Origin: Lutibacter maritimus
GTDB taxonomy: Bacteria; Bacteroidota; Bacteroidia; Flavobacteriales; Flavobacteriaceae
Direction: 5' to 3'
Assembly (NCBI RefSeq): GCF_900116115.1
Contig: NZ_FOZP01000006.1
Location: 124,001-188,000, forward strand
DNA length: 64,000 nt
Shown here: positions 6,624 to 20,395 of the stretch, piece by piece
How the letters are laid out: every line of letters starts with the position of its first letter
How positions within the stretch are numbered: the first letter of the stretch is position 1
Program-made: the position numbers and the translations under genes
Notes under the pieces: generated by a model
Told to the model about the DNA's origin: nothing
The model's database searches: none
The model's input: only the letters and a program-made list of their open reading frames with translations

Positions 6624-9521
6624 TTATTCTTCTTTCGGAATATAGTAACAACCTCCTGGAGATTTATCTGGCGTAAAAGCTCTGTTGAACCATAAAGGTC
6701 TGCGTTCTCCATTTGGACCAGGCGCTGGACGCGTCATTGCCAACCATTCTTTATAAATTTCGTGAGATTTGTTGGTGTCTACAAAAATATCGCCATACTT
6801 ATCTTCGGGTTTTGGTTTTTCAATTCGCACACGTTGATGCCAACAATGCATTCCACTTATAGGATCTGGATGCACTGCATGTGTAATATTTTGATGTACA
6901 CCACCATCTTTCCAAAAAATTCGTTTTGAATCTTTATCGCTAGATTCAAAAGGATGAATTCCTGAAATAGTGTTCATTTTCCAACCACCTTCTCCATTAC
7001 TTTGAATTTTTACCGTATTTGTTGCCCATCTATTTCCTATTTTATCTTGCGGTCTGCGCCAACGTCCAATATGATGTGAGCACGCAACAACACCTGGTTT
7101 CATACTTTGTGTTACCCAAACTTTATCAATAAAATAACCAATATCAGTATTCATTTTTACCAAATCACCTGTTTGAAATCCCCATTTATTTGCATCATCT
7201 GGATGCATCCAAATTGGGTTTCTATTAGAAATTTCAACCAACCATTTTGCGTTTCCTGATCGTGTATGAATTAAAGTTGGCAACCTAAATGTTGGAACCA
7301 ACACGTATTCTCCTTTCGATTTATCGAGATTATCATTATGAATATGACTTTTAATATATCTTGGAATTGCATATTCTGGCCACTTCCAATCAACCATGGT
7401 TTGAGAATAAAATTCATTTTTTCGTGATGGCGTTGGAAAACCAACCATTGCTTTTCCATTAATCATCACTCCAATTTCTTTTCCATTTTTTGAAATTACA
7501 TCATTATCTTTATCAATTATAGAACCTTTCAACTCTTCTTCAGTTAACAGCATTTCATTCTTTTTGTAAGATTCGCCTTTTTCAATTTCAAAAGCGCCAT
7601 ACTTTTGCATGTACTGCAATTCAGTAAGTCCTTCTTTTTTTGCAGCTTCTGGCAAGCCTTTTACACGTTCAAATAAATATTGATAATATTCATCAATAGT
7701 AATTTTTTCTCCAGGACGATAAGGTGATTCAAAATGTTTACGAATTCCCATGCTTCCATCAGGATCAATTTTCCAACTTAAGGCAATCCAAAATTCATCT
7801 TCTTCCCAAACTTCACCTGGATTTGCCTGATACGTATATTCCACTGGTTTTCCATTTCTACGAGCCGCTTCTCTTAAAACTGGTTGACGAAATGCTACCC
7901 AAGTTCCACCGTGTGTTGCGTAAGAATTGATGTCGTGACGTTCTGAAGCCAAACCCATTGGTAACACAAAATCTGCGTGAAAAGCCGTTTCATTCCATGT
8001 TGGAGTTAATGCTGCGTGCAATCCAAATTTACTTTCGTCCATAAACATTTCCATCCACGTAAATCCATCTGGATACGTCCAAACTGGATTGAATACTCTT
8101 GAAAAATACACATCCATTTTACCTCTACCTTCTTTTAAGAAATGTGGCAGTAACTGACTCATTTCAAAAAATGCTAACGGATATTCTTTTGGAAAATGCA
8201 TTTCATTCCATTTTTTTTGAGGCTGCGGTTTATTTGGTTGTGTTGGTGCAAATTTATTCCAACTATTTGGAGAAGTTCCTCCTTTAGCACCAACTGCTCC
8301 AGTTAAGACAGTTAGAAAATGTAAGCAACGTGCCACTGCCCAACCACCTAAATTTGATGCGCCTGCTGCACGCCAATTGTGCGATGCAAATCGTTCACCT
8401 GCTTCTCCAATTTTATGTGCAATTTCAACAATCATAGCAGCTTTTACTCCTGATTCTTCTTCGGCGTATTCAGGTGTAAACTCTTTATATTCATCAATCA
8501 TAGCAGCAATATAGTTTTCAAAAGTAACTTCTTTATCGCTGTGCATTGCTTTTAAATAAGCTTTCCAGTTGGTCCAGTTTTCTAAATAATTTCTATTGTA
8601 TAATCCTTCTTTTAAAATGATTAAAGCCATAGCCAATAAAACGGCTGCTTCGGTTCCTGGATAAGATGGCAGCCAATAATCGGACATACTTGCTGTGTTA
8701 GATAAACGAGGATCCATAGTGGCTAACTTTGCACCTTTCATTTTTCCTTCAATAATACGTTGTGCATGTGGATTAAAATAATGGCCAGATTCTAAATGAG
8801 CCGAAACCAACAAAATAAATTTTGCTTCGGCGTGATCTGGTGATGGGCGATCATAACCGTACCATAAATTGTACCCAAAACGTGCTCCGGATGAGCAAAT
8901 ATTGGTGTGAGAATTATGTCCATCTATTCCCCAACCTTGTAAAATCCAGTTCATAAATTTTTCATGGCCTGGTCTTCCAACGTGGTAGGCTATTTCATTA
9001 TGTCTATCTTCTTTTATTGCTTTTCTAATTCGTTCAGCAAATGTATCTAAAACTTCATCCCAAGAAACTCGTTCCCATTCTCCATCGCCACGCTTTCCTT
9101 TTCTTTTTAAGGGAAATAAAATACGGTCTGGATCTGTTAATTGATTAATAGTTGCTGGACCTTTCGCACAGTTTCTTCCTCTACTTCCTGGGTGATAAGG
9201 ATTTCCTTCAAATTTTTTAACTTCTTGTGTTTCTTTATCAATAAATGCTGTTAAACCACAAGCACTTTCGCAATTAAAACAAGTTGTTGGCACAATTTGA
9301 TAGGTTTTTTTCTCTTTTCTTGGCCAAACTTTTGGATTGTATTCTACCCAATTATCCCACTTTTCTGGTGGAGGAAAGTTCTCATACATTTTAGCAACTT
9401 CTTCATCGGTAAAATGACGCATATCTTTATCAAACTCTTGATATCCTTCTTTGTGCAGATTTGGAATTAATCCAATTTTCTCTGCAATATTTTCTATAAA
9501 TGATGGTTTTTTGTATCCCAT
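6624..9521 (-). CDS. Molybdopterin oxidoreductase catalytic subunit (CISM family)
   Basis: Catalytic subunit (965 aa) of a complex iron-sulfur molybdoenzyme of the DMSO-reductase superfamily. The N-terminal [4Fe-4S] motif is C81-x2-C84-x3-C88-x29-C118. A molybdopterin-binding core follows, and a C-terminal dinucleotide-binding domain begins near [22 protein letters not shown]. Cys209 in [10 protein letters not shown] is the likely Mo ligand, as in polysulfide/thiosulfate-type enzymes. No twin-arginine signal precedes the FeS motif (the start is [15 protein letters not shown]), so I infer a cytoplasm-facing enzyme, as in SoeABC-type sulfite dehydrogenases. It is cotranscribed with the upstream fused FeS/NrfD subunit (18-bp gap). 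Neighbouring YeeE/YedE transporter genes favour a sulfur substrate, but the exact reaction cannot be read from sequence. Confidence 0.88.
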
Positions 9522-9539: not shown

Positions 9540-11156
9540 TTAAGCTAAAGGAATTCTTTGTGGTGCTTCCACCCAAATTTTCTCCGTTGCTATAATTCCT
9601 ATTAAAACTAATACTGCTGATCCAACTAATAAAGGCAATGTGTTGCCAACTAATAAAAATATTAGTGGAATTATATTACCTACCATTACTGTTACAACCC
9701 AAAATAAGTTTTTATACCTTCCTTTTGTAATCATTTTCACTACAGTTTTTGCAGCTGTTGTTGGATGTGTTATAGTTAATTCTGTAATAAGTGTGAATAA
9801 ATTAACCACTAATGCAATTATCATTGTATTTTTTAAAATAACCATCCAATTTTCAGTTCCAAAAATTAAGGAGGCAATTACAAAAATTGCTGTTCCTGCC
9901 ATTATACTATGAACTAACATATGTAATGGTAATGTTGGACTTTGCCAAAAATCGCGTCCTTTTGCTTGTGCAAATAAAAATGCAGTATAAACGGCTAATA
10001 AAATTGCAAATGCAGCTGTTACCCACAACAAAGCTTTTTCAGGAATGGCAATTTTAAAGAATGTTACTGCTCCCCAAACGGTTACTAACAAACCAAAAAT
10101 TGTAATGGTATAACCTCCTTTTACCAACCAAGAATTCCATTGTGGACGCAATAAAACGTTTAAAAATCGATCTGGTCTGTCTAAATCCATTACCAAGAAT
10201 AATCCTGTTAATGCTAAAAATGTTAATGAAATTCCAGCAGACCATAATTTAGCTGTAGGAGAAACTTCGTATCCTAAAATAATTGCTAAAAACGGTATTA
10301 AAAATGCGCCAGCCGCAATTGCTTTTGTAAATACATAAGCAGAAACTTCCCATCCCCAAAGTATTCCTTTGTCTGGAGTATCGTAAACTCTACGCGCTTT
10401 TCCGCTTAAAACATCAATATAATTAGGATTTTCTGTTTCTTTACGTTGATATGCTGCCTGAATATCATTATCTATTACCATTTGTAATAAATCTACATCA
10501 TCATTTGTATGCATCATTTTTTCTGCAGCTTTTGCAAAATGACCAACACCGCGCGCTTGAGAATTCCATAAACTTGGTCCAGATTTAGCTGTAGCCTCAG
10601 GGACTAAAGAAGCATCATCAGCATCAATATAAAATAGGTTGGGATTGGTTCCTTTTTCTGGTTTTCTAACCTTCACCGCTTGACGAGCTAATAATTGTGA
10701 AATTTCAGTGGTTGGGTTGTGCATATCACCAGCAATAATTGCATGTTCTGGACAAACGGCTACACAAGCTGGCTCTCTACCAACATCAACTCTGTGCGCA
10801 CAATAATTACATTTTGCTGCTGTGTTATTATCTGGGTCAATATACAAGGCATCATATGGACACGCTTGCATACAAGATTTACAACCAATACAACGGTTGT
10901 TGTCAAAATCTACAATGCCATCTTCACGTGTATGCAATGCTTCAACTGGACAAATTTCAACGCAAGGTGCGTCTGTACAATGGTTGCAACGCATTACAGA
11001 AAAAATTCTCCGCGTATCTGGAAACTCGCCTTTTTCAACTTGCTTTACATACGTTCTGTTTACACCAATGGCAACATCGTGTTCTGATTTACAAGCAGTT
11101 GTACAAGCATGGCAACCGATACATTTTCGATTATCAATTATAAAACCGTACTTCAT
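9540..11156 (-). CDS. Fused four-cluster ferredoxin subunit and NrfD/PsrC-like membrane anchor
   Basis: Electron-transfer and quinone-interacting partner of the molybdoenzyme. Residues 1-180 carry four [4Fe-4S] motifs: CIGCHACTTAC, CNHCTDAPCVEICP, CIGCKSCMQACP and a CNYC...CVAVCP set. After a linker of about 90 residues, the last 270 residues form about eight membrane helices with the NrfD-type signature DLDRPDRFLNVLLRP. These are usually two separate proteins (B and C subunits), so this is a B-C fusion. The frame opens 24 bp earlier, but MKYGFIIDNRKCIGC at 11156 is the natural ferredoxin start and fits the promoter upstream. First gene of the minus-strand enzyme operon. Confidence 0.9.
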   Translation of the reverse strand: MKYGFIIDNRKCIGCHACTTACKSEHDVAIGVNRTYVKQVEKGEFPDTRRIFSVMRCNHCTDAPCVEICPVEALHTREDGIVDFDNNRCIGCKSCMQACPYDALYIDPDNNTAAKCNYCAHRVDVGREPACVAVCPEHAIIAGDMHNPTTEISQLLARQAVKVRKPEKGTNPNLFYIDADDASLVPEATAKSGPSLWNSQARGVGHFAKAAEKMMHTNDDVDLLQMVIDNDIQAAYQRKETENPNYIDVLSGKARRVYDTPDKGILWGWEVSAYVFTKAIAAGAFLIPFLAIILGYEVSPTAKLWSAGISLTFLALTGLFLVMDLDRPDRFLNVLLRPQWNSWLVKGGYTITIFGLLVTVWGAVTFFKIAIPEKALLWVTAAFAILLAVYTAFLFAQAKGRDFWQSPTLPLHMLVHSIMAGTAIFVIASLIFGTENWMVILKNTMIIALVVNLFTLITELTITHPTTAAKTVVKMITKGRYKNLFWVVTVMVGNIIPLIFLLVGNTLPLLVGSAVLVLIGIIATEKIWVEAPQRIPLA

Positions 11157-11181: not shown

Positions 11182-11226
11182 CAAAGTTAGTTTAAAGGAA
11201 TATTAGTTTTGTAACTAAGATCACAT
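11182..11226 (-). promoter_or_regulatory. Crp/Fnr-type operator and -7 box of the molybdoenzyme operon
   Basis: At 11209-11226 lies TTGTAACTAAGATCACAT, an imperfect copy of the perfect palindrome at 19739-19756: 6 of 6 in one half-site and 4 of 6 in the other. On the minus strand it is followed by exactly 19 bp and then TAACTTTG (11189-11182), a perfect TAnnTTTG -7 box, 25 bp before the ATG. The palindrome centre would fall near -40, as in class II Crp activation. The TF assignment is inference. Confidence 0.65.
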
Positions 11227-11284
11227 ATAAATTTATTTAGAATGATTTTAAATAAAATAAGCATATCATTAAATCAAAATGGTT

Positions 11285-11292
11285 TATTTTTG
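11285..11292 (+). promoter_or_regulatory. Candidate -7 box for moaD
   Basis: TATTTTTG matches TAnnTTTG, 20 bp before the moaD ATG. No -33 TTTG is visible at the usual spacing. The Crp-like palindrome of the divergent operon lies 58 bp upstream. Confidence 0.45.
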
Positions 11293-11312
11293 TTAAATTA
11301 TTCAATAAAAAT

Positions 11313-11555
11313 ATGAAGATTCAACTACTTTTTTTTGGAATTACAACCGATTTAACTGGAGAGAATTCTATTAATTTTGAATTAAATACTGACATTACAG
11401 TACAAGATTTAAAAGAAGTTTTGATGCAAAAATTTCCAAAATTGAAAAATATGCATCAATTTGCTATTGCGGTAAATGAAGAATATGCTGAAGACACTCT
11501 AACTTTAAAGGAAAACGATGTTGTTGCAATAATTCCACCTGTTAGTGGCGGTTAA
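11313..11555 (+). CDS. moaD: MoaD, small subunit of molybdopterin synthase
   Basis: Ubiquitin-like sulfur carrier (80 aa) that delivers sulfur as a C-terminal thiocarboxylate to cyclic pyranopterin monophosphate. The family shape is clear: MKIQLLFFGITTDLTG start, the acidic VAIIPPVSGG end and the required terminal Gly-Gly. It is divergent from the molybdoenzyme operon and reads toward moaE, its partner, from which it is separated by a convergent DUF3817 gene. Its stop overlaps that gene's stop by 4 bp. Confidence 0.95.
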   Translation: MKIQLLFFGITTDLTGENSINFELNTDITVQDLKEVLMQKFPKLKNMHQFAIAVNEEYAEDTLTLKENDVVAIIPPVSGG

Positions 11556-11827
11556 TTTCTGAAGTGTTTTTTATCGATATAAAAAGTGCCAAATGGAATT
11601 ATAGATGCCACTAAAACCGTTACAAAGGTTTTAGATTTCCATTCTAACTGATATTTTAAAACTATTGCTAAAATAACATATGCTATAAAAAGTAAACCGT
11701 GTGGCATTCCTAATAATTTTACATAAGAATCTACACCTGTTAAATATTTAATTGGCGTTGCAATAAACAGCAACAATAAATAAGATACTCCTTCTAACAC
11801 GCTAATAATTCTAAATGTTTTCTTCAT
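11552..11827 (-). CDS. DUF3817 family membrane protein
   Basis: Small integral membrane protein of 91 residues with about three helices (ISVLEGVSYLLLLFIATPI, MPHGLLFIAYVILAIVL, TFVTVLVASIIPFGTFYI). The GVSYLLLLF and PHG..F motifs are typical of DUF3817 proteins; their function is unknown. It sits on the minus strand between moaD and moaE, which otherwise would form a natural pair, and overlaps the moaD stop. A -7 box TACTTTTG is seen at 11861-11854 on the minus strand. Confidence 0.85.
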   Translation of the reverse strand: MKKTFRIISVLEGVSYLLLLFIATPIKYLTGVDSYVKLLGMPHGLLFIAYVILAIVLKYQLEWKSKTFVTVLVASIIPFGTFYIDKKHFRN

Positions 11828-11875
11828 TAAGTTAAATATAAATTACAATTGGGCAAAAGTACACTTTTGATTTCT

Positions 11876-11883
11876 TAACTTTG
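11876..11883 (+). promoter_or_regulatory. Candidate -7 box for moaE
   Basis: TAACTTTG matches TAnnTTTG, 18 bp before the moaE ATG. This suggests moaE has its own promoter despite lying downstream of moaD. Confidence 0.4.
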
Positions 11884-11901
11884 TGAACGTTATCTTAAAA
11901 A

Positions 11902-12327
11902 ATGGAAAATAAAACTTCAGTAAAAATAACTTCGGATACTTTAAACCTTCAGGAATGTTACAATTTTGTACAAGATGCAGCCTGCGGTGGTATTGCTTTG
12001 TTTATTGGAACCGTAAGAAATGCTACACAAAATAAAGAAGTAACTTTATTAGATTTTAGCGGTTACGAACCAATGGCTATAAAAGAAATGCAAAAAATTG
12101 CAGATACTGCTTTGGTAAAATTTGCAATTCATAAAATTGCTATTCATCATGCGATAGGCGAATTAAAGATTGGTGATATTCCTGTAATTATTGCGGTTTC
12201 ATCAGCGCATAGAAAAGCAGCTTTTGAAGCTTGTGAATTTGCTATTGATACATTAAAAGAAACGGTTCCTATTTGGAAAAAAGAACATTTTGAAGATGGC
12301 GAAGTTTGGGTGAATACGCACCCTTAA
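11902..12327 (+). CDS. moaE: MoaE, large subunit of molybdopterin synthase
   Basis: Catalytic subunit (141 aa) that, with MoaD, converts cyclic pyranopterin monophosphate to molybdopterin. Family motifs present: GGIALFIGTVRNATQ, LDFSGYEPMA, AIHHAIGELKIGDIPVIIAVSSAHRKAAFEAC split over residues 75-110, and the catalytic lysine region PIWKKEHFEDGEVWV. Its 3' end is 1 bp from the convergent moeB-like gene. Confidence 0.95.
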   Translation: MENKTSVKITSDTLNLQECYNFVQDAACGGIALFIGTVRNATQNKEVTLLDFSGYEPMAIKEMQKIADTALVKFAIHKIAIHHAIGELKIGDIPVIIAVSSAHRKAAFEACEFAIDTLKETVPIWKKEHFEDGEVWVNTHP

Positions 12328-12328
12328 A

Positions 12329-13408
12329 TTAGTATTTTTCTATTCCTTCAAACAAACTAAAAACAGCTAAATCTGGAAATTTATTTTTAATTTTTTGAGT
12401 TATATCATAGCTCTTAATACCTTTTTCACAAACAAAAACATAGGTTTTATCAAACTTTGGAATAAACATTTCTATATCAAAAATTTTATGAGGAATTTTT
12501 TTATGTACTTCAAACGGAATAACCGTTTGAAGATTATTTATAACACTCACAATTTCAATATTTGAATCTTTTACCCGTTTTTTAAAATTAGATGAAGAAA
12601 TTAATAAAGCACTATCTTGTGTGGTGCAATGTGCATCTAAATAATTGGAGTTTCTAAAAATATCTTCAAAAATTAATGACTTGTTTTTCTTTAGCTTTAT
12701 TTTTAACTGACTGTTTTCTAAAGAATTATATATCAACAATTGATTAGTTAATAATTTACCTGTTTTGGTAATTAATTTTACAACTTCATTAACTTGCAAT
12801 AATGCAATAATACCAACAATTGGATTTAAAGTTCCTGCTTCTTCACAATTAGGAATATCAGTAGCAATTTCAGGAAAAGCGTCTCGTAAATTACACGTAT
12901 AATCACCATCACCATTTAATACATTAAAGGTTGCAACATAACCATCAAACTTATATAAAGAACCATAAACCAATGGCTTTTTTTTAAGCACACAAGCATC
13001 GTTTATTAAGTATTTAATCTGTAAATTATCGGTTCCATCAACAATTATATCATACTTAGCAATTAGTTCTAAAATAGAATTTTTATTGATGGCTTTGTTG
13101 GTGCAAGTAACTTTTGTAAACGGTGCTCTTTTTTCAATTTCTTTTGCTAAAATTTCAACCTTTGGCTGCTGAATATCTTTAACTCTAAAAAATACCTGAC
13201 GGTGTAGATTGGAAACAGAAACGTTATCAAAATCAACCAAATGCAATTCTCCAACACCGCTTGTGGCTAAATAAATGGCAACTGGACTTCCTAATCCTCC
13301 ACAACCAATAACCAAAACTTTGGCTTTTTGCAACAAATCTTGTCCGGTCAAACCAATTTCGGTTAAGGTAGTTTGCCGTTGAAAATATGCCTGTTTATTA
13401 AAGTCCAT
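12329..13408 (-). CDS. moeB: MoeB/ThiF-family adenylyltransferase with C-terminal rhodanese-like domain
   Basis: Activates the MoaD C-terminus by adenylation. Residues 1-250 are a ThiF/MoeB Rossmann domain with VIGCGGLGSPVAIYLATSGVG and the Asn/Arg block SNLHRQVFF. The catalytic Cys region is PNCEEAG. The last 100 residues resemble a rhodanese domain ending VFVCEKGIKSYDI, with the expected Cys. The paired CxxC zinc ligands of E. coli MoeB are not seen: only YTCNLRD remains at the first site. It overlaps the upstream DUF1835 gene by 11 bp and ends the minus-strand Moco operon. Confidence 0.88.
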   Translation of the reverse strand: MDFNKQAYFQRQTTLTEIGLTGQDLLQKAKVLVIGCGGLGSPVAIYLATSGVGELHLVDFDNVSVSNLHRQVFFRVKDIQQPKVEILAKEIEKRAPFTKVTCTNKAINKNSILELIAKYDIIVDGTDNLQIKYLINDACVLKKKPLVYGSLYKFDGYVATFNVLNGDGDYTCNLRDAFPEIATDIPNCEEAGTLNPIVGIIALLQVNEVVKLITKTGKLLTNQLLIYNSLENSQLKIKLKKNKSLIFEDIFRNSNYLDAHCTTQDSALLISSSNFKKRVKDSNIEIVSVINNLQTVIPFEVHKKIPHKIFDIEMFIPKFDKTYVFVCEKGIKSYDITQKIKNKFPDLAVFSLFEGIEKY

Positions 13409-14243
13409 TACTTAATAATTTACGTTTCCCATTTTCATTTAAATAATACTTTTCATCATCTACAAAAAAGAAATTATTTAACTCCTTAAGATACGCAAAA
13501 AATTGCACATCCCCAAAACCATACACAGTATTTTCATTTTGCCAAAATAGTAATTTTTGAACTATTTTTTCAGAAGATAAAGCTTCAGACGCAATAATTT
13601 GAAGTATTTTATTCTCAATTTCATTGAAACCATTTTCTTGCGGAAACCTTTTTAAATGTTGATTTATTGCAGCTTGTAAATAGGTGAATTTTCCGGTTTT
13701 ACTAAAGTTAAAATCGGATAGTTCTTTATAATTATTTTGAACATATAATTTCCAAGCCTGATCTGCAAAAATTAAATTATTTTTTGTGAGTTTTACTTTA
13801 TTTTTATAAAGTGCTACATATTCTTCTGAAGAAAAGTCACTTAATGAATGTAACTTGGTTTTTCCTTTTACCCTTCCAGTGCAAACTAAATTATAGGTAA
13901 CATCTTTTCGGTAATTCTGCAATAAAAATGAACACATTGCCAATAAATTTACTTGACAAAACAAATCGTATTCAAACCACAAAACAATTTCATCATACAC
14001 CGCTAAATCTTCAATTTTTAAGATTTCTTTAATGGTTTTGTCAAAATATTCTAATTTTCCTATGCTAAAATATTTTTCAAAAAAAGCATAGCGTTGTTTC
14101 CAAAAATCATCACTGGCGACTTGCTCCAAAATTGGTCCTTCACAAAACATTTCTCTACAAATTACAATATCGCCTTTTATTCCTGATTTTTGAAATATTG
14201 GCAAAATTGCATCACCGTTAAGTACGTGAATAGAATTAGTCAT
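13398..14243 (-). CDS. DUF1835 domain-containing protein embedded in the Moco operon
   Basis: 281 residues. The N-terminal third (IHVLNGDAILPIFQKSGIKG, then WFEYDLFCQVNLL near residue 105) matches DUF1835, a family of unknown function with a Rossmann-like start. No metal or cofactor motif is obvious. It overlaps mobA upstream by 8 bp and the moeB-like gene downstream by 11 bp, so it is translationally packed inside the Moco operon. A Moco role is inference from position only. Confidence 0.8.
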   Translation of the reverse strand: MTNSIHVLNGDAILPIFQKSGIKGDIVICREMFCEGPILEQVASDDFWKQRYAFFEKYFSIGKLEYFDKTIKEILKIEDLAVYDEIVLWFEYDLFCQVNLLAMCSFLLQNYRKDVTYNLVCTGRVKGKTKLHSLSDFSSEEYVALYKNKVKLTKNNLIFADQAWKLYVQNNYKELSDFNFSKTGKFTYLQAAINQHLKRFPQENGFNEIENKILQIIASEALSSEKIVQKLLFWQNENTVYGFGDVQFFAYLKELNNFFFVDDEKYYLNENGKRKLLSNGL

Positions 14244-15348
14244 TTATTTCTTTGTATGCTTCTTTAAAATCTTCAGGAGTATTAATATTTCTGATAAAAC
14301 TATCATCAATTTCAACAATTTCAACATCAGAATTTATCAATACTTTACGCGGACAAGAATAACCTTGCGCTAAATAATTTAACAATAACGTATAACTTTT
14401 AGGCTCCCAAATGGTAATTAATGGTTCTGGAAACTGAGCGTTTTTCCCTTTAATAGTTGTTGCTATTTTTGATGGATTTCTATGTTTTAATAACAATTGA
14501 ATAACCTCACTATTTACAAATGGCAAATCGGTAGCTAATACTAGCCAAGCAACATTAGGGTTTTCTTGAAAAGCAGAACAAATTGCACCAAACGGACCTA
14601 AACCAATAAATTTATCGGTGATTTTATTTTCTATTGAAATTTCTTGTTCTTCACGAACCGATAAAAACGTTTTTAAATGATTTTTTTCCAACAAATCAAT
14701 AGTTACATCACGCTGATTTTTACCATAAAATTGCAGCGTTCCTTTGTCCGTTCCCATTCTGGTACTTTTCCCACCGGCTAACACTAAACCTTGAATTGGA
14801 GCTATTCTTTGCTTGATAAGATTCTCTATATGTTTAGAGATTTTATCAATTTCATCAATAGAATAACAGATTAAATTTTTAATTTGAGGATTATGCTCTT
14901 CTAAAAAATAGAAATATTTTGAATCATTTGTTAATTTTATAACAAACTGTATATTATTTAACTGATTTAATCTTTTTAAAACCGAAGTTTCTTTATCATT
15001 ATCTAAAATCAAAATTTGTTTGGCAGCTTCGTAATGATTTCCGTTGATAAATAAAAAATCGTACTGAGAAAACTGAATGCGTTGATTGAATTTATTTACA
15101 CTAGAATTCACTTCAATTTTAGCAGTTCCTTTATGGTGAAAAACATATTTTTCTAGCGGTTTAGTTTCAATTGCATCATTATGTGAAGCATCAAAATATG
15201 CCAATTTATAATTCGCCATTTTTTGACTAACTTGATGTACTAAATTAGAAATAACATCGCATTTAGTACCAACAATTGAAATTTCATTGGTTGCAAAATT
15301 ATCGTTATCTCTTAATGCAAGTTTTGCGTGTTTTTGATGTTTACCCAT
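14236..15348 (-). CDS. mobA: MobA-like molybdenum cofactor guanylyltransferase with degenerate MobB-like N-terminal domain
   Basis: Attaches GMP to Mo-molybdopterin to make the bis-MGD cofactor used by DMSO-reductase-family enzymes. The C-terminal half (about 185-370) has the nucleotidyltransferase signature GLVLAGGKSTRMGTDKGTL. The N-terminal half looks like a MobB fold (ISIVGTKCDVISNLVHQV, then YFDASHND), but the Walker A GxxGxGK[ST] is lost. I start at the ATG of MGKHQKHAKLALR (15348), overlapping moaC by 8 bp; the frame is open to 15381. Confidence 0.87.
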   Translation of the reverse strand: MGKHQKHAKLALRDNDNFATNEISIVGTKCDVISNLVHQVSQKMANYKLAYFDASHNDAIETKPLEKYVFHHKGTAKIEVNSSVNKFNQRIQFSQYDFLFINGNHYEAAKQILILDNDKETSVLKRLNQLNNIQFVIKLTNDSKYFYFLEEHNPQIKNLICYSIDEIDKISKHIENLIKQRIAPIQGLVLAGGKSTRMGTDKGTLQFYGKNQRDVTIDLLEKNHLKTFLSVREEQEISIENKITDKFIGLGPFGAICSAFQENPNVAWLVLATDLPFVNSEVIQLLLKHRNPSKIATTIKGKNAQFPEPLITIWEPKSYTLLLNYLAQGYSCPRKVLINSDVEIVEIDDSFIRNINTPEDFKEAYKEIND

Positions 15349-15820
15349 TTTTAATATCACTTTTTCCACCCGATTTTTCAAACAATTTCACTTCTTTAAT
15401 TACCATTTTTTGCGAAATGGCTTTACACATATCATATACGGTAAGTGCCGCTAAATTTGCACCTGTTAAAGCTTCCATTTCAACACCGGTTTTCCCTTCA
15501 ATTGCAACGGTACAAAGTATTTCAATATGCTCTTTATCTGTAATTTCTATATCAATATCAACGCCATTAATTAGTAAAGGATGGCACATTGGAATTAATT
15601 CTGAAGTTTTTTTAACTGCCTGAATACCAGCGATAATAGCCGTTTGAAAAACAGGACCTTTTTTAGTAATTAATTCATCATTATTAAAATGAGAAATAAT
15701 TTCCTCACCTAAAAACATAGTGGCTTTTGCTGTTGCTTTTCGTTTAGTGATTTTTTTATCGCCAACATTCACCATCTTAGGTTGATTTTTTTTATTGATA
15801 TGGCTAAATTTATCTTCCAT
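15341..15820 (-). CDS. moaC: Cyclic pyranopterin monophosphate synthase MoaC
   Basis: Second step of Moco synthesis. 159 residues with the conserved MVNVGDKKITKRKATA start, ELIPMCHPLLINGVDI and the catalytic region GKTGVEMEALTGANLAALTVYDMCKA. Length and motifs are complete. It lies between moeA (36 bp upstream) and mobA (8-bp overlap downstream). Confidence 0.97.
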   Translation of the reverse strand: MEDKFSHINKKNQPKMVNVGDKKITKRKATAKATMFLGEEIISHFNNDELITKKGPVFQTAIIAGIQAVKKTSELIPMCHPLLINGVDIDIEITDKEHIEILCTVAIEGKTGVEMEALTGANLAALTVYDMCKAISQKMVIKEVKLFEKSGGKSDIKNG

Positions 15821-15856
15821 AAATATAAGATTCCAAAACGAGTTCAGAATAATGTT

Positions 15857-17050
15857 TTATCTAAATTTAATAATTGGAAAAATTGTTCCTTTCGTAAAGT
15901 TAGTGCTATCATCTGGCAATTCCAAAAAAGCATCCGCATCTACTAAATTTGCTAAATCCCCAGAGCCTTTTCCTGCTATTGGGGTTGCATATAATTTCCC
16001 TTCTTCTTGCGTAAGTTTTACTTGTAAAAAATAGGTTAAATTAGGTTTAAAATAAAAATCTTCTGATAAAATTGCTTCATTTTTAGGCATTTCTAAATTA
16101 ACAGATTTATAATACCACGGATAAAAATATTTTAAACAACTTACAAAGGTAGAAACCGGATTTCCTGGAAAAGCAAAAACCGTTTTATGCTGCTTTTTAC
16201 CAAACCAAAATGGTTTTCCTGGTCGTTGTTTTACTTGATGAAATAATTTTTGAACACCTAAATTATTCAAAACTTCAGGAATAAAATCGAATTTACCTTT
16301 AGAAACTGCACCGCTAAAAAGTAATACATCATATTCATTTAAAAAACCTTCAATTGTAGAAGTTAACGTTTCTTTATCATCTAAAATATGTGCTGTTTCA
16401 GCTTTTATTTGCAGTTTTTCTAATAATGAAACCAACGCATACACATTACTTCTTCTAATTTGATGTTCTGCCGGAATTTGGTCTACTTCAACCAACTCAT
16501 TTCCTGTTGAAACAATCATAACTTTTGGCTGCTTTGCAACTTTTACTTTCTCTTTACCAACCGTTGCAAACACGCTAATTTCAGCTGCAGAAATTAAAAT
16601 GTCTTTGGGAATTAAAACATCACCTTGCTTTCTGTCCAATCCTTTTAAATGCACATTTTGAAATTCCTTTACAGCTTCTAAATTAACTGTTGCACTATTA
16701 TTTTCTATAGTTAATAATTCATATTGAATTACAGCATCAGTATTTTTTGGTAAGACAGCACCTGTCATTGCTTCAATACAATTTTCTGTATTTTTTAATG
16801 ATAATTGTGGGCTTCCAGCAGCTTGTATTCCTTCAATTTTAAAAGAACGAATTCCGTTATTAAAAGCTTCGGATGAAATTGCAATTCCATCCATACTAAC
16901 TCTGTTAAACGGTGGAAAATCTCTATCGGCAACAATATTTTCTTGTAAAATTCTACCTGAAGATTGTAAAAAATCAATTTCTTCAATTCCAAAATCTTCA
17001 GCGCTTTTTAAAATAATTTCAAGAGCATCTTTTACTGTTGTTAATTCCAT
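15857..17050 (-). CDS. moeA: Molybdopterin molybdenumtransferase MoeA
   Basis: Inserts molybdate into adenylated molybdopterin. 397 residues with the MoeA plan: domain with DFPPFNRVSMDGIAI, GAVLPKNTDAVIQYE, the MoCF-binding core VMIVSTGNELV and VLLFSGAVSKGKFDFIPEVL, and FAFPGNPVSTFV. In typical MoeA the third motif reads SGGVS; here it is SGAVSKGKFD. Follows moaA by 21 bp in the same operon. Confidence 0.96.
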   Translation of the reverse strand: MELTTVKDALEIILKSAEDFGIEEIDFLQSSGRILQENIVADRDFPPFNRVSMDGIAISSEAFNNGIRSFKIEGIQAAGSPQLSLKNTENCIEAMTGAVLPKNTDAVIQYELLTIENNSATVNLEAVKEFQNVHLKGLDRKQGDVLIPKDILISAAEISVFATVGKEKVKVAKQPKVMIVSTGNELVEVDQIPAEHQIRRSNVYALVSLLEKLQIKAETAHILDDKETLTSTIEGFLNEYDVLLFSGAVSKGKFDFIPEVLNNLGVQKLFHQVKQRPGKPFWFGKKQHKTVFAFPGNPVSTFVSCLKYFYPWYYKSVNLEMPKNEAILSEDFYFKPNLTYFLQVKLTQEEGKLYATPIAGKGSGDLANLVDADAFLELPDDSTNFTKGTIFPIIKFR

Positions 17051-17071
17051 TGTTGTTGGTTATTAATTAAT

Positions 17072-18058
17072 TTACCCTCCAATTGTAGACATACTTTCGG
17101 AAATATCATTTCCTCTGTTGGCTTCTGCAATAAAACCGTTTTCTGGTTTATGATGTACGGTTTTTATAAACAATTCTTTCAACTCATCATCACTTGCGCC
17201 ATTTCTAATAAAATCGCGCACATTAAAAACGCCACCGTCAAACAAGCAGTTTTTAAACATTCCGGTTGCTGTAATTCTAATTCTATTACAATCGTTGCAA
17301 ATGGTTCTGGTAAATGCTGGAATTATACCAAAAGTTCCTTTATAATTTGGGATTTTATAGTTTTTTGAAGTGGACGACTTTTTTGAAATAACTGATTCAA
17401 CCTCTGGAAAATGATTTTTTATATGATTTATAATTTTATTGAAATCCCAAAGTTCTGCCATATCTCTTTGTCCTTTTCCATTAAAAGGCATCTCTTCAAT
17501 AAAACGAACTGCAATATCTTTTTCTTTTGAAAGCTCAACAAAATCTATAATTTCATCGGTATTAAAACCAGATTGCACTACTACATTCAGTTTTAATTTA
17601 AGTTTACTTTTTTCTAATTTCTGAAAAGTATCAAACACATTTTCAAAAACATCTCTACGCGTTATTGTCGCAAATTTTTCTTTATGTAAACTATCAATAC
17701 TTAAATTAATAGCGTTTATGTTTAAAGCTTCTAACTTATCTATATAATTTGAAATTAATGCGCCGTTTGTAGTAATGTTAATTTCATCTAACTTATCATT
17801 AAAGGAAAGTGATTCTAAAAAATTCACAAAATCTTTTCTTACAAACGGTTCTCCACCAGTTAAACGAACTTTATTTACACCTAATTCAGACAGTACACGA
17901 GTAATTCTGTACATTTCTTTATAGGAAAGTAATTCTTTTCTATCAACAATATCAATTCCTTTAGCTGGCATACAGTATTGACAGCGCAAATTACAACGAT
18001 CTGTAACTGCTAAACGTAAATATGAAATTTTTCTACCAAATTTATCCCTTAACTCCAT
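17072..18058 (-). CDS. moaA: GTP 3',8-cyclase MoaA
   Basis: Radical SAM enzyme for the first Moco step. 328 residues. The SAM cluster motif is CNLRCQYC (C-x3-C-x2-C), followed by VRLTGGEPFVRKDF. The C-terminal second cluster motif is CNDCNRIRIT with a third Cys at MFKNCLFDGG. The chain ends in Gly-Gly, as MoaA should. Its ATG touches the upstream crp stop (1-bp overlap), implying coupled translation. Confidence 0.97.
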   Translation of the reverse strand: MELRDKFGRKISYLRLAVTDRCNLRCQYCMPAKGIDIVDRKELLSYKEMYRITRVLSELGVNKVRLTGGEPFVRKDFVNFLESLSFNDKLDEINITTNGALISNYIDKLEALNINAINLSIDSLHKEKFATITRRDVFENVFDTFQKLEKSKLKLKLNVVVQSGFNTDEIIDFVELSKEKDIAVRFIEEMPFNGKGQRDMAELWDFNKIINHIKNHFPEVESVISKKSSTSKNYKIPNYKGTFGIIPAFTRTICNDCNRIRITATGMFKNCLFDGGVFNVRDFIRNGASDDELKELFIKTVHHKPENGFIAEANRGNDISESMSTIGG

Positions 18059-18693
18059 TAATTGAGTGTTATTTTATTTCTTCCTAAAATTATAACTTCT
18101 TCTTTTTCTAATTTTTTTAGTACTCTTGAAATAGCTTCTCTTGATACTTTTAAATCACGTGCAATATCAAAATGCTTTCTATTAATTGTATTGCTATTAT
18201 AAACTAAACTAGCATTTTCCAGATACTTTAACAATCTGAATTCTAAATTTTCAAAAGCAATGTCATTTATTTTCTCAATTAAAAATGATGTTTGCCTGTA
18301 ATTTAGTTTCATAAAATATAAACGCCACGAATTGTATTTTACAAACCACGAATTTACGGTTTTTACAGGAACTGCTATGTAAGTAATAGTACTTTCAGCT
18401 TTTAACCTAATTTCACTATTTTTATTTTCTAATGCGTAAGTAATTGCAATGGAGCTTGTTTGTTGTGACGTTAAATAATGTAAAAAAATACCGTTTCCTT
18501 TTCCATCACGTCTCATCACTTTAACAACTCCTGAAGTTATAAAAGGAATAAACTCAATCTCTCGACGAATTTCTAAAATTATTTTATCTGGCTCAGCTTT
18601 TTTTAAAATACCATAATTACAGATTTCTTGCCTTAAATTATCTTCAAAAATGGTTGAAAAATTTTGGGCAACAATTTCATTTATTTTCATCAA
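18058..18693 (-). CDS. Crp/Fnr-family regulator in the sulfur transporter / Moco operon
   Basis: 211 residues: cyclic-nucleotide-binding-like beta-roll (about 20-120), long helix, and C-terminal winged helix with DIARDLKVSREAISRVLKKLE. No CxxC-type FeS motif is seen, so it is not a classical Fnr. Paralogous to the protein encoded at 19760-20395. Lies 10 bp after the second YeeE/YedE gene and overlaps moaA by 1 bp. A role in controlling the two Crp-box promoters of this region is inference. A second ATG lies one codon in. Confidence 0.88.
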   Translation of the reverse strand: MMKINEIVAQNFSTIFEDNLRQEICNYGILKKAEPDKIILEIRREIEFIPFITSGVVKVMRRDGKGNGIFLHYLTSQQTSSIAITYALENKNSEIRLKAESTITYIAVPVKTVNSWFVKYNSWRLYFMKLNYRQTSFLIEKINDIAFENLEFRLLKYLENASLVYNSNTINRKHFDIARDLKVSREAISRVLKKLEKEEVIILGRNKITLN

Positions 18694-18703
18694 AATAAAT
18701 AAT

Positions 18704-19117
18704 TTAATGTGGTAGTTTATTTTTTAAAAGACCATATAAAAAGGCTCCTAAAGTTGCGCCAAATATTACTATTAAAATAGCTACAATACCTCTGCCTATT
18801 AAAACAAACATTGGGCCTGGACAAGCTCCGGCTAATGCCCAACCTAAGCCAAATAAAATACCGCCTAATAAATTTCTGTACAATCCAACTTTTTTAAGAG
18901 CTATATGAATTTCATTTCCTTCAAAAGTTTTAACCATTTTTTTTCGGAATAAAAACATACTTATCATTCCTAAAACAACTGCTGAACCGATAATTCCGTA
19001 CATATGAAACGACTGAAATTTAAACATTTCATAAATTCTAAACCACGAAATAATTTCGGCTTTGCTCATTACTATTCCAAAAAGAATACCTACTAAAAAA
19101 AATTTAATGTATTTCAT
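18704..19117 (-). CDS. YeeE/YedE (DUF6691-type) sulfur transport membrane protein, second half
   Basis: 137 residues, about four membrane helices. The motif ALAGACPGPMFVLIGRG holds the conserved Cys of the YeeE/YedE repeat thought to relay thiosulfate or other sulfur species across the membrane. It lies 12 bp after the first half, so the two half-size proteins probably form one transporter. The position directly ahead of the Moco genes suggests that sulfur supply or substrate uptake is linked to the molybdoenzyme. Confidence 0.88.
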   Translation of the reverse strand: MKYIKFFLVGILFGIVMSKAEIISWFRIYEMFKFQSFHMYGIIGSAVVLGMISMFLFRKKMVKTFEGNEIHIALKKVGLYRNLLGGILFGLGWALAGACPGPMFVLIGRGIVAILIVIFGATLGAFLYGLLKNKLPH

Positions 19118-19129
19118 AATGCTTTCTTT

Positions 19130-19687
19130 TTAAAATAATAGTGGTAAAATAAACCAAGTCATTATTAAACCTCCAATAAAAAAACCAATTACAGAAATTA
19201 ATGATGGAAGTTCTAAATTACTTAAGCCAACAATTGCGTGTCCAGAAGTACAACCGCCAGCCCATCTTGCACCAAAACCAACCATAATACCTGCAATTAT
19301 TAAAATTAAAAATCCTTTTAATGAAAGCATTGTATCTATACTAAAGATTTCATCAGGTAAATAAGATGTTCCTGCATTTTGAATTCCAATAGCTGCTAAA
19401 TCTTGAACAGTTTGAGGATTTAATGCAACTGCATCATTTGGAGATAACCAATAAAATGCAATAAATCCGCCCACAATAGAACCTGCAACAAAAATTAAGT
19501 TCCATGAATTTTCTTTCCAATCTATTTTAAAATAGTCTACAAACTTGCCTGCACCGCCAATTGAACAAAAAGTTTCTAAATTTGAAGAGACTCCAAATCG
19601 TTCGCCAAAATAATATAGTAAAAACATGACAAACGCTATAATTGGACCTGCAACATACCAAGCCCAAGGTTGAGTAATAAATTCCAT
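19130..19687 (-). CDS. YeeE/YedE sulfur transport membrane protein, first half
   Basis: 185 residues, about five helices, starting with WYVAGPIIAFVMFLLYYFGE. It has the GARWAGGCTSGHAIVG motif, the thiosulfate-relay Cys motif of YeeE/TsuA proteins. First gene of a minus-strand operon that appears to run through yeeE2, crp, moaA, moeA, moaC, mobA, DUF1835 and moeB with gaps of at most 36 bp. A Crp-like palindrome lies 52 bp upstream. Confidence 0.9.
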   Translation of the reverse strand: MEFITQPWAWYVAGPIIAFVMFLLYYFGERFGVSSNLETFCSIGGAGKFVDYFKIDWKENSWNLIFVAGSIVGGFIAFYWLSPNDAVALNPQTVQDLAAIGIQNAGTSYLPDEIFSIDTMLSLKGFLILIIAGIMVGFGARWAGGCTSGHAIVGLSNLELPSLISVIGFFIGGLIMTWFILPLLF

Positions 19688-19711
19688 AATTTATTTAATT
19701 AGTTAGTTTTA

Positions 19712-19756
19712 TAAAAGTATTCTATAAATTATGCTGATATGTAACTTGTGTTACAT
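19712..19756 (-). promoter_or_regulatory. Crp/Fnr-type palindrome and -7 box of the YeeE/Moco operon
   Basis: ATGTAACTTGTGTTACAT (19739-19756) has perfect 7-bp arms ATGTAAC/GTTACAT around a 4-bp centre. On the minus strand it is followed by exactly 19 bp and TACTTTTA (19719-19712), one mismatch from TAnnTTTG, and then 24 bp to the ATG. This is the same geometry as upstream of the molybdoenzyme operon. The site is just downstream of the crp gene at 19760. Confidence 0.72.
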
Positions 19757-19759
19757 TAG

Positions 19760-20395
19760 TTAAAACTCAAGTATTTCAATTTTATTTCTATTAAGCTTTA
19801 TTTTCCCTTCATTTTCTAGCTGTTTTAGCAATCTAGAAATTACAACACGTGAAGTATGCATATCATAAGCAATGTCTTGATGCGTTGTATTTAAGGAAGT
19901 TTCTCGCATAATTTGGGCTTTATCTTTTAAATATTTGTACAAACGCTCGTCCATTCGCATAAAAGCTAAAGTATCAATAGTTTCCATCATTTCGTTTAAG
20001 CGAATATTATAACTATCAATTACAAAATTTCTCCATGATTTGTATTTTACCAACCATTCATCTAACTTTTCTTTTGGTAAAAACACAATTTCAGATTCTT
20101 TTTCTGCAATGGCTCTAATGCCACATTTTCCATTAGAAATTGCACTTGCAAATGAACTTGCACAAGTATCTCCACGCTCTAAAAAGTATAACAAAATTTC
20201 TTCACCTTTTTTATCTTCACGAACAATTTTTATGGCACCATCTAAAAGTAAAGGAACTCCTTTCATTTTATCGCCTAAATCAACTAATAACTCATTTTCA
20301 CGTAATTTTTTATATACGCCAACTTGCTCGATTTCATCCAACAATTCTTTTTCAAAAACAAATGAATAATAATTATCTAATTTTTCTCTTATCAT
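19760..20395 (-). CDS. Crp/Fnr-family transcriptional regulator
   Basis: 211 residues: beta-roll sensor domain (about 20-120) and a C-terminal winged helix with DIAYDMHTSRVVISRLLKQLE. Similar in length and helix-turn-helix to the neighbour encoded at 18058-18693; in the recognition helix the usual Glu of SRE is Val (SRVVISR). Its start overlaps the waaA stop by 4 bp (ATGA type), so it may be read from the waaA promoter. Lies directly before the palindrome of the YeeE/Moco operon. Common partner gene of YeeE/YedE in flavobacteria. Effector unknown. Confidence 0.88.
   Translation of the reverse strand: MIREKLDNYYSFVFEKELLDEIEQVGVYKKLRENELLVDLGDKMKGVPLLLDGAIKIVREDKKGEEILLYFLERGDTCASSFASAISNGKCGIRAIAEKESEIVFLPKEKLDEWLVKYKSWRNFVIDSYNIRLNEMMETIDTLAFMRMDERLYKYLKDKAQIMRETSLNTTHQDIAYDMHTSRVVISRLLKQLENEGKIKLNRNKIEILEF

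Follow-up and report, generated by a model that had tools for sequence, protein, structure and literature searches.

Two short palindromes in a 64,000-nucleotide (nt) stretch of Lutibacter maritimus DNA (contig NZ_FOZP01000006.1, positions 124,001 to 188,000; hereafter the window), one before an operon for sulfur transport and molybdenum cofactor (Moco) synthesis (operon A; site A) and one before the molybdoenzyme genes psrBC-psrA (site B), are probably operators of a single sulfur-oxidation regulon, whose sites would be shared out by half-site between two Crp/Fnr-family regulators at class II promoters, with GTAAC assigned to Crp2 and GTGAY to Crp1. This reading is built on comparison of sequences across the genus. 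The two promoters in the window contain the following elements.

Site A, 19739–19756, read on the minus strand from 19756 to 19739: 18-base-pair (bp) palindrome ATGTAACACAAGTTACAT, putative operator of the yeeE1 promoter, with GTAA on both arms.
-7 box of operon A, 19712–19719, minus strand: TACTTTTA, 19 nt from the 18-bp palindrome.
Site B, 11209–11226, read on the minus strand from 11226 to 11209: ATGTGATCTTAGTTACAA, putative operator of the psrBC promoter, with one GTGA and one GTAA arm.
-7 box of the psrBC promoter, 11182–11189, minus strand: TAACTTTG, 19 nt from the 18-bp palindrome.

Read along the minus strand, one promoter runs ATGTAACACAAGTTACAT, 19 nt, TACTTTTA, 24 nt and the ATG of a YeeE-like gene, and the other ATGTGATCTTAGTTACAA, 19 nt, TAACTTTG, 25 nt and the ATG of a gene for an FeS-NrfD fusion; the palindrome coordinates, 19-nt spacing, -7 boxes and distances to the start codon reported in an earlier, sequence-only reading of the window were all recovered. 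That reading also recognized the palindrome at site B, although calling it degenerate overstated the case, as both arms are good half-sites (TGTGAT on one side and TGTAAC when read from the opposite one). The core GTRAY-N4-RTYAC occurs exactly twice in the window, at sites A and B, both times with TAnnTTT at 21 nt (the core-to-box distance equivalent to 19 nt from the 18-bp palindrome). Across 300 windows from first-order Markov simulations, a mean of 0.013 core-plus-box sites per window was obtained, with one site in four windows and two in none, which bears out the claim that the identical spacing is unlikely to have arisen by chance. The palindrome alone, with up to three mismatches, matched 61 times in the window against 44.3 expected, a count reached in 1 of 100 shuffles; being barely above chance at such loose matching, it leaves most of the signal to the spacing.

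Wider scans, for which the earlier reading had called, yielded the same design. The L. maritimus genome contains 13 exact matches to the core followed after 21–22 nt by TAnnTTT, as opposed to 2 for the reversed control pattern, and nine genomes searched with the same box contain 62 GTAAY and 34 GTGAY sites (24 and 4, respectively, for the reversed pattern). When TAnnTTTG was allowed anywhere from 6 to 36 nt downstream of the palindrome in 38 genomes of the genus, there were 90 matches for GTAAC-N4-GTTAC (13 for the reversed control), of which 44 lay at 21 nt and 20 at 22 nt, and 53 for GTGAT-N4-ATCAC (1 for the reversed control), of which 45 lay at 21 nt and 5 at 22 nt. A minor group of GTAAC matches (9/90; e.g., loci L125, L128, L132, and L137) has TAnnTTTG 9 nt downstream, too close for the same geometry. 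In Flavobacterium psychrophilum, TAnnTTTG is described at -12 to -5 (PMC9723704); if the Lutibacter box is placed as in this member of another genus, the centre of the palindrome comes to lie at -40.5 for 21 nt and at -41.5 for 22 nt, and a two-fold symmetric site of this family near -41.5 of such a start would have class II Crp/Fnr geometry. Together with the recurrence of the design at related genes and the conservation described below, the genus-wide spacing peak thus favours the class II arrangement and Crp/Fnr-family control proposed earlier, and suggests that sites A and B serve activation by such proteins.

Conservation was followed in the crp2 neighbourhood of 36 relatives (34 of the genus Lutibacter and 2 of other genera), in all of which kdtA, crp2, and yeeE1 were found (yeeE1 partial in G024); psr, crp1, and the Moco genes varied from locus to locus or ran off contigs. 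Among 35 Lutibacter crp2-yeeE1 intervals, that of L. maritimus included, 26 contain a two-armed site A, with TAnnTTT at 21 nt in 23 and at 22 nt in G035 and with an imperfect box in G023 and G029. The arms co-change: GTAA stands on both in 14 of these sites and GTGA on both (GTGAT-N4-ATCAC) in 11, and one is mixed. The site B core was present in every one of the 28 Lutibacter psrBC promoters read, 25 times perfect (10/10) and three times with one mismatch, always at 21 nt, while the spacers drift; the palindromes are thus kept in orthologous upstream regions as the spacers diverge. Both checks that the earlier reading had set as possible refutations, one in the genome itself and one in relatives, spoke in its favour. 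Co-loss of site A with psr holds only partly: G019, G020, G036, G009, and G024 are without both a psrBC ortholog and site A, and G012, G018 (one mismatch), G026, and G028 are without site A though Crp1 and psrBC are present. In G084, from another genus, crp, yeeE1, yeeE2, psrBC, and psrA follow one another, an arrangement that links the transporter to the enzyme; GTAAC sites precede yeeE1 (21 nt) and psrBC (22 nt).

The sequence-only reading pointed, probably rightly, to Crp/Fnr proteins encoded nearby, but a location between the two operons describes their genes too simply: 3 nt separate the end of crp2 from site A, and crp1 is itself a member of operon A, in third place. Operon A would accordingly regulate itself or form one step of a cascade.

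crp2, 19760–20395, minus strand: Crp/Fnr-family regulator with a cyclic nucleotide monophosphate (cNMP)-type domain (PF00027, PF13545).
crp1, 18058–18693, minus strand: Crp/Fnr-family regulator (PF13545), third gene of operon A.

The cNMP-type sensor and Crp-type helix-turn-helix (HTH) of Crp2 place it in the Crp/Fnr superfamily; Crp1, likewise assigned to it, matches PF13545 as its only Pfam model, and its sensor part falls within an alignment (E 1.1e-4) to a Crp/Fnr structure. FNR carries four cluster-binding cysteines, three of them N-terminal. Identity with cAMP-CRP was rejected for both proteins (NF008732, 43.6 bits for Crp2 and 26.4 for Crp1 against 266), as was identity with Fe-S FNR, for which the Fnr model gives 23.7 against 228 bits with Crp2 and is not listed for Crp1, and the cysteine pattern differs. 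Crp2 has Cys78 in 37/37 orthologs and Cys91 in 35/37, with no other conserved cysteines (Ser occupies position 91 in G040 and G062, and the G084 Crp has further cysteines near 85); no invariant cysteine was found among 27 aligned Crp1 sequences. A scan of named genomes with Crp1 gave 31 loci, of which 25 are from Lutibacter, 4 carry broader Flavobacteria/Bacteroidetes labels, and 1 each belongs to Gelidibacter and Lewinellaceae (37% identity). A third paralog, Crp3 (L. maritimus C12:137000-152500, L198), has a V-type recognition helix and a GDTC cysteine motif. Its gene lies in a cluster with those for a second molybdoenzyme, NrfD and FeS proteins, a further YeeE pair, tandem rhodaneses, and a porin-like protein, and a search of this L. 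maritimus cluster for the 21-nt architecture found no site.

The recognition helices of Crp1 and Crp2 differ at one telling residue. Specificity mutants at E181 exist for E. coli CRP. The helix of Crp1, SREAISR, has Glu at the place of E181 and the CRP-like pattern R-E--SR, kept in 28/28 helices read, and that of Crp2, SRVVISR, has Val there (R-V--SR; Arg-Val in 37/37). At the CRP half-site, Arg180 is described as reading G2 and Glu181 together with Arg185 as reading G4:C4 (PMC11253593), and a structural role of Glu181 is also described in PMC4868304. Retention of the Glu181/Arg185-type contact in Crp1 and Val in Crp2 would therefore predict GTGA for the former and GTAA for the latter. The idea that the Crp2 helix changes where site A turns from GTAAC into GTGAT was considered and rejected, R-V--SR being found in both groups.

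Half-site types are assorted by target and covary with Crp1. In genomes with Crp1, GTGA occupies both arms of the SulP1 promoter site in 32/32 (Crp1 being only a fragment at a contig end in G015 and G035) and of the SQR2 site in 15/16, with no site found in the other one, whereas the rhodanese lipoprotein promoter has GTAA on both arms in 22/25, with no site found in 3. Five of the 38 genomes have no Crp1 ortholog: G004 and G014 (86–87% complete) and G019, G020, and G036 (99–100%). None of the three Crp1-less genomes with SulP1 (G014, G019, and G036) has a GTGA arm at this promoter, while palindrome, spacing, and box are kept (one arm mismatch in G036); Fisher's exact test for 32 versus 3 genomes gives p = 0.00015, a value that ignores kinship. 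On a tree of SulP1 plus persulfide dioxygenase (PDO), the absence of Crp1 and of GTGA arms amounts to two changes, both agreeing, with G019/G036 nested beside the Crp1-containing G031. The psrBC promoter has at least one GTGA arm in 28/28 Lutibacter genomes, 11 of which have one arm of each type, and GTAAC on both arms in both other genera (21 nt from the box in G062, where the site lies some 90 nt upstream of the ATG, and 22 nt in G084); no Crp1 was seen in the mapped psr loci of these two, the part of either genome searched for it.

The genes behind the sites extend the picture well past the window. From the 38-genome scans, 60 loci were fetched, 30 per class, and the 49 with 21–22 nt spacing were read (21 GTAAC and 28 GTGAT). 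The GTAAC class comprises 15 PspE-like rhodaneses, 5 rhodanese lipoproteins, and 1 metallo-beta-lactamase/rhodanese fusion (persulfide-dioxygenase-like), and the GTGAT class 12 SulP, 8 psrBC, 6 yeeE1, and 2 others. Of the 13 sites in L. maritimus, 7 lie before sulfur genes and 5 before other genes; no gene follows directly on the remaining one. Five promoters beyond sites A and B lie before sulfide:quinone oxidoreductase (SQR)-like, persulfide-dioxygenase-like, rhodanese, and SulP genes: four of the 21–22 nt design belong to a sulfur-gene cluster on one contig, which encodes SulP1, SulP2, the metallo-beta-lactamase/rhodanese fusion, a type III SQR-like enzyme, an SQR-like flavoprotein next to an HMA protein, and the rhodanese lipoprotein accompanied by a Tll0287-like protein, and the fifth precedes a PspE-type rhodanese elsewhere in the genome. 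The names SQR, PDO, and PspE come from domains and partial model matches; the NCBIfam cut-off was passed by none of the five proteins tested, SulP1 falling short by 2 bits. Rhodanese genes are also described for Lutibacter isolates from sulfidic Black Sea water (PMC11129491). The promoter architecture taken in the sequence-only reading to link the two operons of the window is thus indeed shared by them, but operon A and psr make up only part of a wider putative sulfur-oxidation regulon.

Several observations weigh against a division of labour between Crp1 and Crp2, and some of them would fit an alternative in which one regulator, Crp2 or Crp3, reads all sites through a relaxed consensus GTRAY, the types reflecting drift or affinity tuning and Crp1 acting elsewhere. 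Hybrid sites are common (site B of L. maritimus itself and 11/28 Lutibacter psrBC sites), the yeeE1 site switches type between genomes under a constant Crp2 helix, and hybrids occur without Crp1, as at the PDO site of G020, which has a GTGA arm, and, in G019 and G036, at 22-nt sites before genes for a 95-amino-acid and a peroxiredoxin-like protein; hybrids, the L. maritimus site B included, are therefore not assignable by their letters alone, and a GTGA arm is no proof of Crp1. PDO sites are mixed even in 28 genomes with Crp1 (with A for a GTAA and G for a GTGA arm, 11 AA, 6 GA, 1 AG, 3 GG, and 7 with no site found), and 6 of 32 Crp1-containing Lutibacter intervals are without site A. Crp1 presence changes only twice on the tree, so that a sign test on two pairs (p 0.5) cannot reach significance, and G014, a long branch near the root in which a Crp2 ortholog was likewise not found, may never have had Crp1. 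Nevertheless, reading of all sites by a single regulator is considered unlikely, given the fidelity with which individual targets keep their type in Crp1-containing genomes (SulP1 32/32, SQR2 15/16, rhodanese lipoprotein 22/25) and the fact that Crp1 and the GTGA arms are missing from the same three of the 35 genomes with SulP1.

A different objection is that the adjoining crp genes are bystanders and that another Crp/Fnr paralog binds the sites. A search with Crp2 returned 13 candidates in the L. maritimus genome, 5 of them significant; Crp3, which carries a GDTC motif and is encoded beside another sulfur and molybdoenzyme cluster, also has the V-type helix and could act at GTAA sites; and a Crp2 ortholog was not found in 3 of 38 genomes (G004, G006, and G014), possibly owing to assembly gaps, of which G006 and G014 keep GTAAC sites. 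The position of crp2 directly before yeeE1 in 36/36 mapped loci, two of them in other genera, and again in G084, speaks for its involvement, as does the tracking of the GTGA type with Crp1 and not with Crp3-like proteins, which are present in the Crp1-less G014, G019, and G036; this alternative is accordingly given a small probability. The least probable alternative has the palindromes act as operators for a repressor or fold into RNA hairpins. The crp2 stop codon lies 3 nt before site A, whose arms co-change (GTAAC/GTTAC to GTGAT/ATCAC), as in a hairpin, whereas the same letters recur at other promoters (psrBC, pspE, and SulP1) and the box distance is mostly 21–22 nt. A crp2 terminator or RNA hairpin at site A was rejected on this recurrence and on the lack of a T-run after the site, while repression from -41, unlike the terminator reading, would be compatible with the sequence. 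A last point of dissent is that 5 of the 13 L. maritimus sites precede genes without an evident sulfur role, taken from their sequences to encode a TolC-like protein, a 95-amino-acid protein, a peroxiredoxin-like protein, a LysE-like protein, and a flavin adenine dinucleotide (FAD) oxidoreductase. Hybrid GTGAT-N4-GTTAC sites at 22 nt (21 nt in L181) were seen, in Crp1-less genomes too, before the genes for the 95-amino-acid and peroxiredoxin-like proteins (L395, L396, L407, L415, L417–L419, L181, L400, and L401) and perhaps belong to another Crp/Fnr regulon.

Under the preferred reading, in which Crp2 and Crp1 share the regulon, dimeric activators of the Crp/Fnr family would bind about 41 bp upstream of the start, replace the -33 element, and touch RNA polymerase. 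The regulon would take in SQR-like enzymes, persulfide-dioxygenase-like and rhodanese proteins, YeeE import, Moco synthesis, psrBC-psrA, and SulP (probably for sulfate export). Crp2, with Val for Glu181 and conserved cysteines, would read the GTAAC sites and attend to persulfide handling, and Crp1, with its Arg-Glu--Ser-Arg helix, the GTGAY sites at the sulfite-to-sulfate end. In L. maritimus a cascade might follow: Crp2, at its type of site before operon A, would switch on Crp1 and the Moco genes first, and Crp1 the enzyme next, operon A delivering sulfur import, Crp1, and Moco before site B drives the enzyme that requires the cofactor. From the conserved Cys78 and Cys91 and from the target genes, Crp2 probably senses sulfane sulfur, perhaps via its thiols; that Crp1 responds to sulfite is a guess. 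A bolder version, advanced tentatively and at somewhat less than even confidence, posits a natural Glu181 specificity switch, in which a Val-type, sulfane-sulfur-responsive Crp2 would activate GTAA promoters, a Glu-type Crp1 from a Crp2-controlled operon would activate sulfite oxidation and sulfate export from GTGA promoters, and promoters would be rewritten from GTGA to GTAA upon loss of Crp1.

These putative promoters resemble the class II promoters of E. coli CRP and FNR in the two-fold symmetric site near -41.5 and the family HTH, as well as in the R-E--(S/G)R recognition helix of Crp1 and the TGTGA-type half-site at GTGA sites; they differ in the Bacteroidota promoter with its TAnnTTTG -7 box and in a natural V-type paralog with TGTAAC half-sites, and neither Crp1 nor Crp2 passes the CRP or FNR family models. 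BigR/SqrR (of the ArsR family), CstR, and FisR control persulfide dioxygenase and related sulfur genes, and several use a cysteine pair; unlike these members of other protein families, the candidates here are Crp/Fnr proteins at an activator position. BigR is described as a repressor (PMC5823870). Literature searches for Crp/Fnr regulators of sulfane-sulfur genes gave none among the papers listed; as these came from a library with few subscription journals and the search probably misses 'Crp/Fnr', the absence is weak.

The remaining genes governed by, or adjoining, the two promoters are listed below.

yeeE1, 19130–19687, minus strand: first gene of operon A, half of a thiosulfate-type sulfur transporter (PF04143; weak TsuA match below cut-off).
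yeeE2, 18704–19117, minus strand: second YeeE/DUF6691 transporter half (PF04143, PF20398).
moaA, moeA, moaC, mobA, a DUF1835 gene, and moeB, 12329–18058, minus strand: Moco genes, the presumed rest of operon A from gene order and synteny.
psrBC, 9540–11156, minus strand: 4Fe-4S (PsrB/SoeB-type) protein fused to an NrfD-type membrane subunit (PF13247, PF03916).
psrA, 6624–9521, minus strand: PsrA/SoeA-type molybdopterin oxidoreductase (PF00384, PF01568, PF04879).
moaD (11313–11555) and moaE (11902–12327), within 11313–12327, plus strand: divergent Moco genes kept next to psrBC in relatives.

In the Moco stretch of operon A, Pfam matches were obtained for ThiF, MobA-like, and DUF1835 domains; the genes named moaA, moeA, and moaC, like the divergent moaD and moaE, are presumed to be such from their sequences. 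The DUF1835 gene (13398–14243) stands between mobA and moeB within this run of Moco genes; several relatives in which mobA and moeB are kept (e.g., G031, G023, G027, G010, and G002) gave no match to it at E 1e-8. Between the divergent psrBC and moaD, upstream of site B, there is a second inverted repeat, ATTTAGAATGATTTTAAAT (11235–11253), presumably Fur/PerR-like by its look; the pattern used for it matched in 18/28 Lutibacter promoters, and a looser form occurs in several others.

By Pfam, the A, B, and C modules of a SoeABC-type enzyme are all present in PsrA and PsrBC; no NCBIfam model was above its cut-off, every model listed for PsrA lying far below. Like the SoeABC sulfite:quinone oxidoreductase, this system has a Mo-type A subunit and 4Fe-4S B and NrfD-like C parts; unlike it, the B and C parts are fused in one protein. 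No twin-arginine translocation (Tat) signal is visible by eye on PsrA, which is compatible with an N-side location such as that proposed for SoeAB (PMC8076601). On the lack of a visible Tat signal and the apparent co-control with SulP and a persulfide-dioxygenase-like protein, a SoeABC-like sulfite dehydrogenase is favoured over a periplasmic polysulfide or thiosulfate reductase.

Class II control by Crp/Fnr proteins is of a known kind; what appears to be new, with no such report among the papers listed, is that a pathway from sulfide to sulfate in Bacteroidota would be run in this way, by two paralogs and through half-sites of two types. If true, the proposed arrangement would define a regulatory circuit for heterotrophic sulfide-to-sulfate oxidation across a flavobacterial genus and would provide functions for a molybdoenzyme of unknown substrate and for two Crp/Fnr proteins so far uncharacterised. 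It would also provide a natural test of the co-evolution of one recognition-helix residue and its base pair.

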